Under the pieces are notes generated by a model. That model was not told where the DNA came from and made no database searches. It saw only the letters and a list, made by a program, of their open reading frames with translations. The position numbers and the translations under genes were made by a program. This document shows positions 4,048 through 28,941 of a stretch of DNA of 64,000 bases, piece by piece. How positions within the stretch are numbered: position 1 is the stretch's first letter; every line of letters starts with the position of its first letter. The stretch is from Clostridia bacterium (GTDB lineage: Bacteria; Bacillota; Clostridia; UMGS1840): the NCBI GenBank assembly GCA_017936745.1, contig JAGBEY010000014.1, forward strand, positions 62,001 through 126,000, given 5' to 3'.

Positions 4048-5421
4048 TTAAAACATTGGTTTGTGCGGATTCTTTTTTTGAAAATCCATCTGCAATTTTT
4101 CTAAAAATGCTTCGGGATTTTTTAGTCCTTGCTCCAGATACCACTCATAAAACAGGCGGAACAAGGCAGGATGTGACAACGGAGGTCGGTGCTTCAACAG
4201 ATTGCCCAGAGAAAGAAAGGTATCATAATACGACAGGGGGTTTTTCTCCCACAAAAAGGAGAGTGCAGTGGGGAAAAAGCCTTTATTGGAAAAGGTGTCC
4301 AGCCCATCCTCTGCCACTTTTAATTCCATCATATCCTCCACTGAGAGCCAGTTGGTACAAATGACCTGATAGGGAGGATGGGGGGAATAGACCAGCCCGT
4401 ATTCCTTTGTCTTTTCCTTGATTTCGGTGCCGTTTAGCACCTTTAAAAAGCCAAGCTGAAGCAGATGGGGCGAAAGGGCATAAACACGGTTGAACCCCTC
4501 CACAAAGCTATGCTTATCCTCATAGGGAAGCCCTGCAATTAAATCCAGATGGAGGTGAATATTTCCCATGGAAAGAATTTCTTTCAAATTGGCAAAGGCT
4601 TTCTCTGTGTTATTTTGCCGATGGATGGCGGTGAGGGTGGTTTCGTTTAAGGACTGAAGCCCCGCTTCAAACTGAATCCGCCCGCGGGGAGCAGTTTTTA
4701 AGAGGGTAAAATCTTTTTTTGAAAACAGCTCGGGCTTGATTTCAAAGTGAAAGCCGGTATCTCTCCCCTCTTCAATCACAAAATTCCAGATTTCATACGC
4801 ATCGGGATTCACATTAAAGGTGCGGTCAATGAATTTCACCTTTTTCACGCCGGCTCGGATGAACACCGAAAGCTCCTCCTTCACCTGCTCGAAAGGCTTG
4901 AACCTAAGATTCTTCTCCAGAGAGGAAATGCAATAACTACAACGGTATGGACACCCTCTGGAGGATTCGTAATAGACGGTTTTGCCTACGGAAGGTAAGG
5001 TTTCATAAGAAAAGGGAAGATTGGGAAACTCGCCGTCGGGTTCTTTCCCCGTAAGGTAGCGGTACACTGCCCCCTCTCCCTCCCCGGCTATGACAAAATC
5101 GGCTTCGGGGTATTGGGAGTCCTTATCCTCGTGATAGCCGGCTTCGGGGCCCCCGTAAAAGATGCGGAGTCGGGGACGTGCCAGCTTCAAATCCTGTGCC
5201 AGACGGCGGACTGCGGAAATGTTCCATAAGTAGGTAGAAAACCCGATGATATCGGGCTGTTTGGACAAAATATCATAAAAAACTTTTTCATAAGGGTCAT
5301 TCACCGAATATTCCGCCACCTCGTGTGCTACCCCTTTTTTTGTCAAATAGGCACTGATGGAATACACCGCCAGTGCCGTGTGTGTATATTTGGCATTGAT
5401 ACCCACTAAAAGAATCTTCAT
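4048..5421 (-). CDS. B12-binding-domain radical SAM protein (DUF4080 type)
   Basis: The 457-aa protein starts with a cobalamin-binding-like Rossmann domain (MKILLVGINAKYTHTALAVY) and continues into a radical SAM core with the [4Fe-4S] motif CPYRCSYC near residue 158. The C-terminus resembles the DUF4080 region often found at the end of such proteins. The classical DxHxxG cobalamin motif is not obvious, so cobalamin binding is uncertain. Substrate unknown; relatives have been implicated in methylation or other radical chemistry. It sits 11 bases after the M42-like gene and 44 before rsmE in one probable operon. Confidence 0.85.
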   Translation of the reverse strand: MKILLVGINAKYTHTALAVYSISAYLTKKGVAHEVAEYSVNDPYEKVFYDILSKQPDIIGFSTYLWNISAVRRLAQDLKLARPRLRIFYGGPEAGYHEDKDSQYPEADFVIAGEGEGAVYRYLTGKEPDGEFPNLPFSYETLPSVGKTVYYESSRGCPYRCSYCISSLEKNLRFKPFEQVKEELSVFIRAGVKKVKFIDRTFNVNPDAYEIWNFVIEEGRDTGFHFEIKPELFSKKDFTLLKTAPRGRIQFEAGLQSLNETTLTAIHRQNNTEKAFANLKEILSMGNIHLHLDLIAGLPYEDKHSFVEGFNRVYALSPHLLQLGFLKVLNGTEIKEKTKEYGLVYSPHPPYQVICTNWLSVEDMMELKVAEDGLDTFSNKGFFPTALSFLWEKNPLSYYDTFLSLGNLLKHRPPLSHPALFRLFYEWYLEQGLKNPEAFLEKLQMDFQKKNPHKPMF

Positions 5422-11431: not shown

Positions 11432-11704
11432 AATATAATGTGACGATGGAGAACAAGTAGCGTATTTACGAAGCTTTGAGAGAACTGTCGGGTGGTGCAA
11501 GACAGGAGCAGACAAGTGCGTGAATACATCTCCGGAGCAGAGCACCGAACGGATTTCCCCAGTAGACTGCTACGGGTGTGCCCGTTACAGCACAAGGGTA
11601 TTTTCGTGTACCCGTTGAGGCCGATTTATCGGTAAACTGAGGTGGTACCGCGGGAAAATGACTTCTCGCCCTCTGAAACTAATTCGTTCAGAGGGCGTTT
11701 TTTA
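11432..11704 (+). promoter_or_regulatory. T-box leader, tyrosine specifier (UAC)
   Basis: A tRNA-sensing antitermination leader. The stem I base GGAGA (11448-11452) pairs with TCTCC (11529-11533). The specifier loop has AAGTA on its 5' side and GAATACA on its 3' side, closed above by GCGTATTT pairing with AAGTGCGT. This puts TAC (Tyr) at 11525-11527 in specifier position, followed by the usual A. The T-box AGGTGGTACCGCGG starts at 11640. The terminator CGCCCTCTGAA/TTCAGAGGGCG (11667-11697) is followed by T6. Uncharged tRNA-Tyr should allow readthrough into the acyl-CoA ligase and iorAB. Confidence 0.93.
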
Positions 11705-27791: not shown

Positions 27792-28223
27792 ATGGAAAAT
27801 ATCGGCGAAAAAATTGCATACTTAAAAGGTCTGGCTGAGGGCTTAAAAGTAGATGAATCCACCAATGAAGGAAAAATCATTGCCGGCATTTTAGATGTTC
27901 TGGCTGAAATGAATGAATACATTGTGGAAATTGATGACGATTTGGCAATGGTTCAGGAAGAAATGGATAACTTATCCGACGATTTGGCAGATGTGGAAGA
28001 CATCGTGTTTGAAGATGATGACGATTGCGATTGCGATTGTTGCGATGATGATGACGATGTATATGAAATTATTTGTCCCAACTGCGGAGAAGAAGTATAT
28101 GTTGACGGAGAAACCTTGGAAACCGAAGATGTTTACTGTCCCTCCTGCCGTCAGGTGATTGAACTGGATTTACCCGAAGGCTGTGATTGCGGTTGCGATT
28201 GTGACTGCGATTGCGACGACTAA
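27792..28223 (+). CDS. Cys/Asp-rich zinc-ribbon protein
   Basis: A 143-aa protein with three parts. The N-terminal 60 residues are helical and probably coiled-coil (GEKIAYLKGLAEGLKVDEST, then MAMVQEEMDNLSDDLADVED-like acidic heptads). An Asp/Cys cluster (DDDDCDCDCCDDDDD) comes before a zinc ribbon (CPNCGEE...CPSCRQ). A second Cys/Asp run forms the C-terminus (CDCGCDCDCDCDD). The start at 27792 has AAGGAG eight bases upstream. The helical-plus-ribbon core is known from Clostridial hypothetical proteins; the Cys-Asp repeats look metal-binding. Function unknown. A strong terminator follows. Confidence 0.85.
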   Translation: MENIGEKIAYLKGLAEGLKVDESTNEGKIIAGILDVLAEMNEYIVEIDDDLAMVQEEMDNLSDDLADVEDIVFEDDDDCDCDCCDDDDDVYEIICPNCGEEVYVDGETLETEDVYCPSCRQVIELDLPEGCDCGCDCDCDCDD

Positions 28224-28280: not shown

Positions 28281-28397
28281 GGTTCATTTTACGATCCTAT
28301 TTTCCCAGGTTCAAAAAGCCTGATACAGAACATCTCTTTTTGGGAATAATCAATGCAGGATAGAGCAGCCGTGCGGCAATTGAGCACTCGTGTAAAA

Positions 28398-28447
28398 GGG
28401 GTAAGGGGATTGTTAAGGGGGATAGGGGGAATATCGAAAATTCCCCC
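28398..28447. other. G-run cluster with adjoining hairpin
   Basis: Four G runs (28398-28401, 28405-28408, 28417-28421, 28425-28429) with short loops fit a G-quadruplex pattern on the plus strand. The last run also pairs with ATTCCCCC (28440-28447) as GGGGGAAT...ATTCCCCC. It lies just past the 3' end of the minus-strand 75-aa gene, and no T run follows. Confidence 0.5.
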
Positions 28448-28471
28448 TGCTCCCTTGACAAAAAAAGGTTC

Positions 28472-28699
28472 TTATCCAAAATCATGCCGTGTTCCCACAT
28501 TCCATCCATTTGCCATCATAATTTCTACGATTTCTTCTACCACTTCAAAGTCATCCAATTCTTTATTTTTTATGACAGTTTGAATTTCCTTTAAACACTG
28601 TCTGTCAGAATGGTTTTCACAGATTTCCAATACTTTTAGTGTTTGTGTGCAGCAACTTTTTAATTGTGCCATCAAATCTTGATTGTTGTGATAATCCAT
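28472..28699 (-). CDS. Small soluble protein of unknown function behind a structured leader
   Basis: A 75-aa protein starting MDYHNNQDLMAQLKSCC (or one Met earlier at 28702). It is predicted to be all-helical and acidic, with three Cys (adjacent pair at residues 16-17, one near 26) and no membrane segment. GAGGA lies at 28708-28712 just before the start. A longer frame to 28861 would run through the folded leader and is not credible. I do not recognise a family. It is divergent from the flavodiiron/rubrerythrin genes and is preceded by its own promoter, a large hairpin structure and a terminator. Confidence 0.65.
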   Translation of the reverse strand: MDYHNNQDLMAQLKSCCTQTLKVLEICENHSDRQCLKEIQTVIKNKELDDFEVVEEIVEIMMANGWNVGTRHDFG

Positions 28700-28717
28700 C
28701 ATTGTTTCCTCTTTTCC

Positions 28718-28746
28718 AAATAAAAAATGCGTGACCGAAGCCACGC
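28718..28746 (-). terminator. UUCG-tetraloop terminator in front of the 75-aa gene
   Basis: On the minus strand GCGTGGC-TTCG-GTCACGC (28746-28729) is followed by ATTTTTTATTT. The 7-bp stem (one G-T pair) is capped by a stable UUCG loop and ends a few bases before the ribosome binding site of the 28472-28699 gene. That is the position expected for a transcription attenuator. Confidence 0.75.
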
Positions 28747-28906
28747 ACGAAAAATGCATAGCTTCTGTGCAACCACGCAAATTCAACATCTTACAGCATA
28801 AAACTCCAAAATGTGTGAAAACAGAGTATGCATTTTTACCAATAATAAAAATACACACCATTGGAATGTTTTATGTGTAATAACAAGATATTTAATTTGC
28901 GTGGTT
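28747..28906 (-). promoter_or_regulatory. Candidate structured cis-regulatory leader RNA
   Basis: On the minus strand the predicted transcript begins at about 28906 with AACCACGCAAATT (28906-28894). This pairs perfectly with AATTTGCGTGGTT (28783-28771). After one A-G mismatch the helix continues with AATATCTT (28892-28885) on AAGATGTT (28792-28785), and then CATAAAAC (28875-28868) on GTTTTATG (28804-28797). Inner shorter helices are also possible. The GCGTGG of the closing stem is repeated in the terminator arm at 28746, so the two structures could compete. No known riboswitch class fits by eye. Confidence 0.6.
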
Positions 28907-28912
28907 AGTGTC

Positions 28913-28941
28913 AGTATAGCATAGTTTATAAAATTATGCAA
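28913..28941 (-). promoter_or_regulatory. Promoter of the structured leader/75-aa gene
   Basis: On the minus strand TTGCAT (28941-28936) and TATACT (28918-28913) with a 17-base spacer. The start point falls at about 28906, exactly at the first base of the closing stem of the leader RNA. Confidence 0.75.

Follow-up and report, generated by a model that had tools for sequence, protein, structure and literature searches.

The window analysed here is a stretch of 64,000 nucleotides from a Clostridia bacterium (contig JAGBEY010000014.1, positions 62,001 to 126,000), the genome of which (G000) comprises 1.5 Mb and is 92% complete. On its minus strand an open reading frame (ORF) at 28472..28702 is preceded by a leader with a promoter, a long hairpin, an intrinsic terminator and a ribosome binding site (RBS). 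The ORF encodes 76 amino acids from the first ATG of ATGATG and 75 from the second, so that the 75 aa originally reported hold for the second start only. Its product matches no Pfam or NCBIfam family above the cut-off, and the same leader lies ahead of a 57%-identical homologue in a sister species (L017).

The promoter contains a good extended -10 element (TATACT at 28913..28918, with TGC in front; TGCTATACT) and, across a 17-nt spacer, a weak -35 element (TTGCAT at 28936..28941) matching the consensus at 3 of 6 positions, for which the earlier description as near-consensus was generous. The -35 element, at -36 relative to the start of the covariance model described below, also marks the point where homology begins between copies located before unrelated genes. 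Transcription in the window probably starts on the first base of the closing stem, as the original prediction had proposed, since most homologous copies have their -10 element at a fixed distance before the model start: it is exactly 4 nt in 82 of 136 copies, whose -10 elements match the consensus at 5-6 of 6 positions, and 5 nt in the window copy.

The closing stem, P1, can be read directly on the minus strand as 13 perfect base pairs between AACCACGCAAATT (28906-28894) and AATTTGCGTGGTT (28783-28771), and is supported by sequence, fold and covariation. A helix ATATCTT/AAGATGT is nested within it, and the minimum free energy (MFE) fold continues inwards with P2, formed by CATAAAAC (28875-28868) and GTTTTATG (28804-28797), for which double changes are found at all 11 pairs across copies. 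The 5' strand of a third helix, P3, is GTGTGTATTTTTA (28846..28858), identified by the fold and by a family pairing statistic. It faces the core strand AAAAATGCATACTCTGT (28821..28837), the most conserved segment, which is complementary to strand A (ACAGAAGCTATGCATTTTT, 28750..28768) and could pair either within P3 or with A, giving a pseudoknot. Strand B (TGCGTGGCTTC, 28737..28747) could in turn pair with A as an antiterminator or with strand C in the intrinsic terminator (28748-28721), which consists of B as GTGCGTGGC, a TTCG loop, C as GTCACGCAT and six T residues. Two terminator-like sites were found versus 0.2 expected. The terminator is followed by the RBS AAAAGAGGA (28707..28715), in which AGAGGA precedes the ATG at 28702. 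The hairpin RNA folds at -49.0 kcal/mol versus -23.1 for dinucleotide shuffles (z -8.2), and hairpin plus terminator at -69.3 kcal/mol (z -8.6); as no shuffle was equally good in either case, the folding energy is not due to chance. The stem, the inner helices and the UUCG-loop terminator before the RBS were thus all present as originally described.

DNA searches identified further copies in the same genome, one before a stalk-domain protein and another 460 nt upstream of it, before a Cys-rich 82-aa protein. The strand GUAAAAAUGCAnnCUCUGUUU is common to these copies, the window copy and that of the sister species, and their stem sequences are wholly different. A pattern search then yielded true copies in further families of the class. 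A covariance model (R1) built from nine copies that did not include the one in the window recovered the window copy at exactly 28750-28907 on the minus strand (64.6 bits, E 6.7e-9), which delimits the whole aptamer-like domain. The original prediction had suggested building such a model to look for compensatory changes upstream of the same small-protein family; compensatory changes were found, and the copies are not tied to the 75-aa family. R1 matches 93 of 391 genomes of the class, belonging to 55 of 222 genera. With a second model (R2), refined on the recovered family copies, 3-28 copies per genome were counted in 30 carriers, including 5 in G000. One of the latter (G000:C6:18452-18635, L195) is apparently decayed, its P2 being enlarged and its terminator broken. 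Among 300 genomes drawn phylum-wide, R2 was positive in G000 and had no match in the others, so the family appears, at the sensitivity of the model, to be confined to this class.

The named carrier records are all metagenome-assembled genomes (MAGs) of uncultured Clostridia, and the labels of many refer to the gut of ruminants or other herbivores. A true copy (97.6 bits) was also found on a human faecal scaffold, an unannotated 'phage' record (MT837627.1, L203, positions 4110-4237). This scaffold carries an integrase and XRE regulators, the copy precedes a zinc-ribbon membrane protein, and it rides on a mobile element. Viral contigs gave no full-length match, their 7 pattern matches scoring as chance or short partial matches, and no copy was found in plasmids. 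Neither the gathering nor the permissive thresholds of Rfam 15 gave a consistent match, and no family fits. The main texts of three RNA discovery papers, on 26 genomes, 50 genomes and the human microbiome (PMC8632094, PMC11109978, PMC8040213), contain nothing recognisable, an unnamed entry in their supplementary motif lists being possible; other literature searches, supplementary motif lists apart, found no description of the RNA. The family is apparently previously undescribed.

Structure conservation was evaluated on 84 distinct copies, in an alignment (A5) fitted to P1 and P2 and not to the pseudoknot. Over the 28 pairs of P1, P2 and the pseudoknot, 91.0% of the cells are paired, compared with 29-54% when the strands are slid, changes on both sides occur at 24 of the 28 pairs, and none of 500 shuffles reached as high a pairing score. 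P1 pairs are formed in 98.6% of the cases, with both-side changes at all 8 outer pairs. The P1 and P2 counts lean towards structure because these helices were used for the alignment; those for the pseudoknot are independent, as it played no part in it. The pseudoknot occurs as GCUC/GAGC, ACUC/GAGU, CCUC/GAGG and UCUC/GAGA, and is wholly changed, to GCUUUGG/CCGAAGU, in two divergent copies (L036, 1666-1789; L037, 792-910). This subtype possibly has an altered specificity. P3 strands pair better with their own partners than across copies over the family (z -8.2), and the 3' side of P3 contains the most conserved family segment, AAAAAugcA..CUCURUUU. The family thus has a conserved structured 5' leader domain with covariation, as transcriptional riboswitches do.

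The pairing of the strands was then compared between partners of the same copy and cross-copy controls in 135 copies. Strand A directly follows P1 and closes with UUUUU; B and C are the 5' and 3' arms of the terminator, respectively. Energies were lower in the same copy for core:A (-15.0 versus -12.5, z -13 to -14.5), A:B (-12.6 versus -10.4, z -12 to -14) and B:C (-15.2 versus -9.3, z -24 to -26), and in 24 non-redundant copies the z values were -8.2, -5.9 and -9.9, respectively. Core:B was weakly above control (z -3.0), and core:C (z -1.0) and A:C (z +1.2) gave no signal above it. Core:C was rejected as an anti-terminator for want of a pairing signal. The core is complementary to A over its full length, an A5 run facing U5, UGCA facing UGCA and NCUCUG facing CGGAGN', with compensatory changes at each variable step. 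The data thus support three mutually exclusive helices among four strands, and, as these three alone are clearly above control, two putative states, namely core:A with B:C, or P3 with A:B. The leader would therewith possess an expression platform in which terminator and antiterminator exclude each other.

In the window copy the three helices differ little in energy (core:A -15.4, A:B -15.1 and B:C -15.8 kcal/mol). The MFE fold of this copy prefers A:B, MFE programs ignoring pseudoknots. Its toehold is reduced to UCUGU/ACAGA, and some copies lack one or another of the pairings. The competing strands initially noticed, GCGTGG and CACGC, common to P1 and the terminator, proved peculiar to the window copy: P1:B (z -2.4) and P1:C (z -1.1) are hardly above the cross-copy controls in the 135 copies. 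The more general proposal of a riboswitch-like leader with a competing terminator and of no known class is borne out by the covariation, the fixed position before genes and the lack of an Rfam match.

The element has a fixed order of promoter, RNA, terminator, RBS and gene, and in most copies the start codon follows the start of the U-tract by 22-27 nt. Of 130 copies, 73 have an RBS and an ORF on the same strand at 35-110 nt beyond the model end, versus 7 of 127 in the mirror window. The other 57 copies have no simple RBS with an ORF of at least 45 aa in the expected window; some of them occupy upstream positions in tandem arrays, one of which is a triple. Leaders more than 85% identical precede unrelated proteins; in several such pairs the homology covers only the region from promoter to RBS, and in others it is somewhat longer. 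The orthologous interval in sister species is empty (G004), occupied by other single genes (G001, G003) or by a transposase-like end (G002), so leader and gene constitute an accessory insertion. The site, between positions 28223 and 29078 of the window (orthologues L205-L208), appears as an insertion hotspot, holding the leader and the 75-aa gene here, a four-helix-bundle-like ORF in G001 and a DUF559-like ORF in G003.

Among 66 downstream proteins examined, 13 are leucine-rich repeat (LRR) proteins of the BspA type, 3 contain a stalk domain (Cu amine oxidase N), 3 are AbrB/MazE-like regulators, two are M23 peptidases and two belong to DUF6273, with one each of SLH, CHAP, RCC1, HtrA-like and GIY-YIG. 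Many others, including a recurrent small Cys-rich protein, have no family match. The latter (MIIDxTGIELxPGNxGKDCxGNG...CCCDECxY..CC, no Pfam match) lies behind the RNA in several families, at L045, L037, L036, L002 (1179-1424), L139, L151 and L064. No biosynthesis or transport theme emerged from the 66 genes, and a classical feedback ligand is therefore not suggested.

We consider it probable that the element is a cis-acting transcription attenuator with its own promoter and a pseudoknotted aptamer-like domain. The case for a leader acting as an attenuator is strong, and a riboswitch in the strict sense, with direct ligand binding by the RNA, would be plausible. Such a leader would determine if RNA polymerase terminates ahead of the gene or continues into it. 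P1, P2 and P3 make up a long hairpin, the asymmetric loop of which is conserved (core AAAAAUGCAnnCUCUGUUUU). In one state the core would pair with A, just 3' of P1, in a pseudoknot of 14-17 bp, leaving B free to form the terminator with C, and the gene would be off. In the other the core would be kept in P3, A would pair with B, no terminator would form, and the gene would be on. CUCUG, free in the loop, may serve as a toehold from which A invades P3. A small molecule, an ion or a protein may be the signal sensed by the hairpin; in the simplest case it would make the core:A fold more or less stable, with the direction in which the gene responds likewise conjectural. The large internal loop J1/2 may let P2 fold back along P1 and thereby bring the core to A; by estimated geometry, the 6-nt linker would probably be too short for core:A without this fold-back.

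The element would thus travel as a promoter-to-RBS cassette ahead of accessory, often surface-exposed, genes. In a broader reading, which we hold with as much doubt as confidence, it would represent a new riboswitch class that responds to a global signal through a strand-displacement pseudoknot and ranks among the most frequent cis-regulatory RNAs in the lineages that carry it. Spreading as a promoter-plus-switch cassette, it would bring surface, secreted and small proteins recently gained by uncultured gut Clostridia under common control. That Rfam 15 lacks a structured RNA carried by about one in four of the sampled genomes in a major gut class, with as many as 28 copies in one genome, would amount to a considerable gap in the picture of bacterial regulation. 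Through this RNA, surface and small proteins that are otherwise uncharacterised come together in one regulon, and the question of its ligand is directly testable. A modular cassette of promoter, aptamer and attenuator before unrelated genes would also hint at the way in which a host brings acquired genes under its control, and natural switches could be drawn from it.

Compared with known transcriptional riboswitches, the attenuator shares the conserved structured 5' leader domain, the exclusive antiterminator and terminator, and the RBS and ORF directly behind. It differs in that no metabolic or transport genes are among those examined, that pairing between the core and the antiterminator strand extends over 14-17 nt and includes A5:U5, and that a promoter lies at a fixed distance in a cassette found before unrelated genes. 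T-box leaders (RF00230) likewise have a long stem followed by an antiterminator/terminator switch, but the hairpin has no T-box features; the Rfam search that detected a real T-box leader on the plus strand at 11434-11676 (115 bits), the sole Rfam match of the window, found none at the hairpin. The same attenuator could instead respond to an RNA-binding protein, acting as an antiterminator or stabilising the terminator, in place of a small molecule that the RNA itself binds. The downstream genes, without a common metabolic theme, and the conserved U-rich loop CUCUGUUUU, which could be a protein site, make this a possibility to be taken seriously, if a doubtful one; large conserved pseudoknotted folds such as this one are typical of direct ligand sensing. 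In Firmicutes, LoaP/dfn-type or EAR leaders likewise have a structured hairpin and govern clusters of accessory or surface genes. The present element has, unlike them, a dedicated local terminator and single genes, and LoaP, the one known candidate tested, had no member above the curated cut-off in 29 carriers, where only general NusG-like scores were obtained.

Riboswitches for c-di-GMP, like this RNA, occur in many copies per genome, and the surface proteins that they control recall its downstream genes; GGDEF genes are present in 22 of 30 carriers. The tandem arrangement is also shared with c-di-GMP riboswitches (PMC4759541). A switch for c-di-GMP or a close relative is nevertheless very improbable: fold and sequence differ from c-di-GMP-I and -II, the Rfam scans gave no c-di-GMP match (RF01051, RF01786 or related), and GGDEF matches are absent from 8 of the 30 carriers, including G000 and G274 (94% complete, 27 RNA copies), which argues against this ligand with a small doubt left by MAG incompleteness. 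We give just as little credence to a MITE- or REP-like repeat, mobile or palindromic, that has no part in regulation; a palindromic repeat was the alternative named in the original prediction. Multiple copies per genome, tandem copies, near-identical ones before unrelated genes, and the copy on the integrase-bearing scaffold from human faeces are what such a repeat would produce, but orientation and spacing to genes are fixed (the 73 and 7 copies above) where a MITE would have no fixed orientation, and the compensatory evolution of A, B, C and the core would be meaningless for a passive repeat. P1, the inverted repeat, is not terminal, since the homologous block encloses it from promoter to RBS, with boundaries that vary between pairs, and no terminal inverted repeats with target-site duplications were seen at the block ends in a non-exhaustive duplication search. 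Its own promoter, its strong terminator and the stability conferred by a stem at the 5' end would also suit a small independent RNA that stops at the terminator, the gene being transcribed from a different site. This is very improbable, as the short distance from U-tract to start codon (about 18 nt in the window) leaves no room for another promoter there or in most copies, and compensatory changes maintain the A:B antiterminator strand. Translation-coupled attenuation by a short upstream ORF is hardly credible. An AUG follows the AGGAG-like strand A in 61 of 135 copies, but it is absent in 74, the ORFs that it opens are random in length (3 to 126 codons) and in frame, 93 of the 135 copies have no Shine-Dalgarno sequence with a start inside the leader, and no conserved leader peptide was found.

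The leader does precede the 75-aa gene here, as first proposed, and its homologue in L017, but with the same RNA before many unrelated genes the 75-aa protein is one of many clients. Homologues without the leader, held at the outset to speak against a leader RNA, do exist, adjoining XRE regulators in sister species (L018, L019); they refute a dedicated partnership with this gene and not the RNA element. At L018, L019 and L020 (G003, G004) the leaderless homologues and the adjacent XRE-type HTH genes point away from each other, and a palindrome resembling an operator overlaps the promoter; the arrangement suggests a compact regulatory unit of two genes. In the window the 75-aa gene is immediately followed (about 28380-28470) by an interspersed, partly palindromic repeat, AGGGGGTAAGAGGATTGTTAAGG...GGGGGAA, that recurs in the genus, for example at L002 (540-960) and L019 (about 2100-2150).
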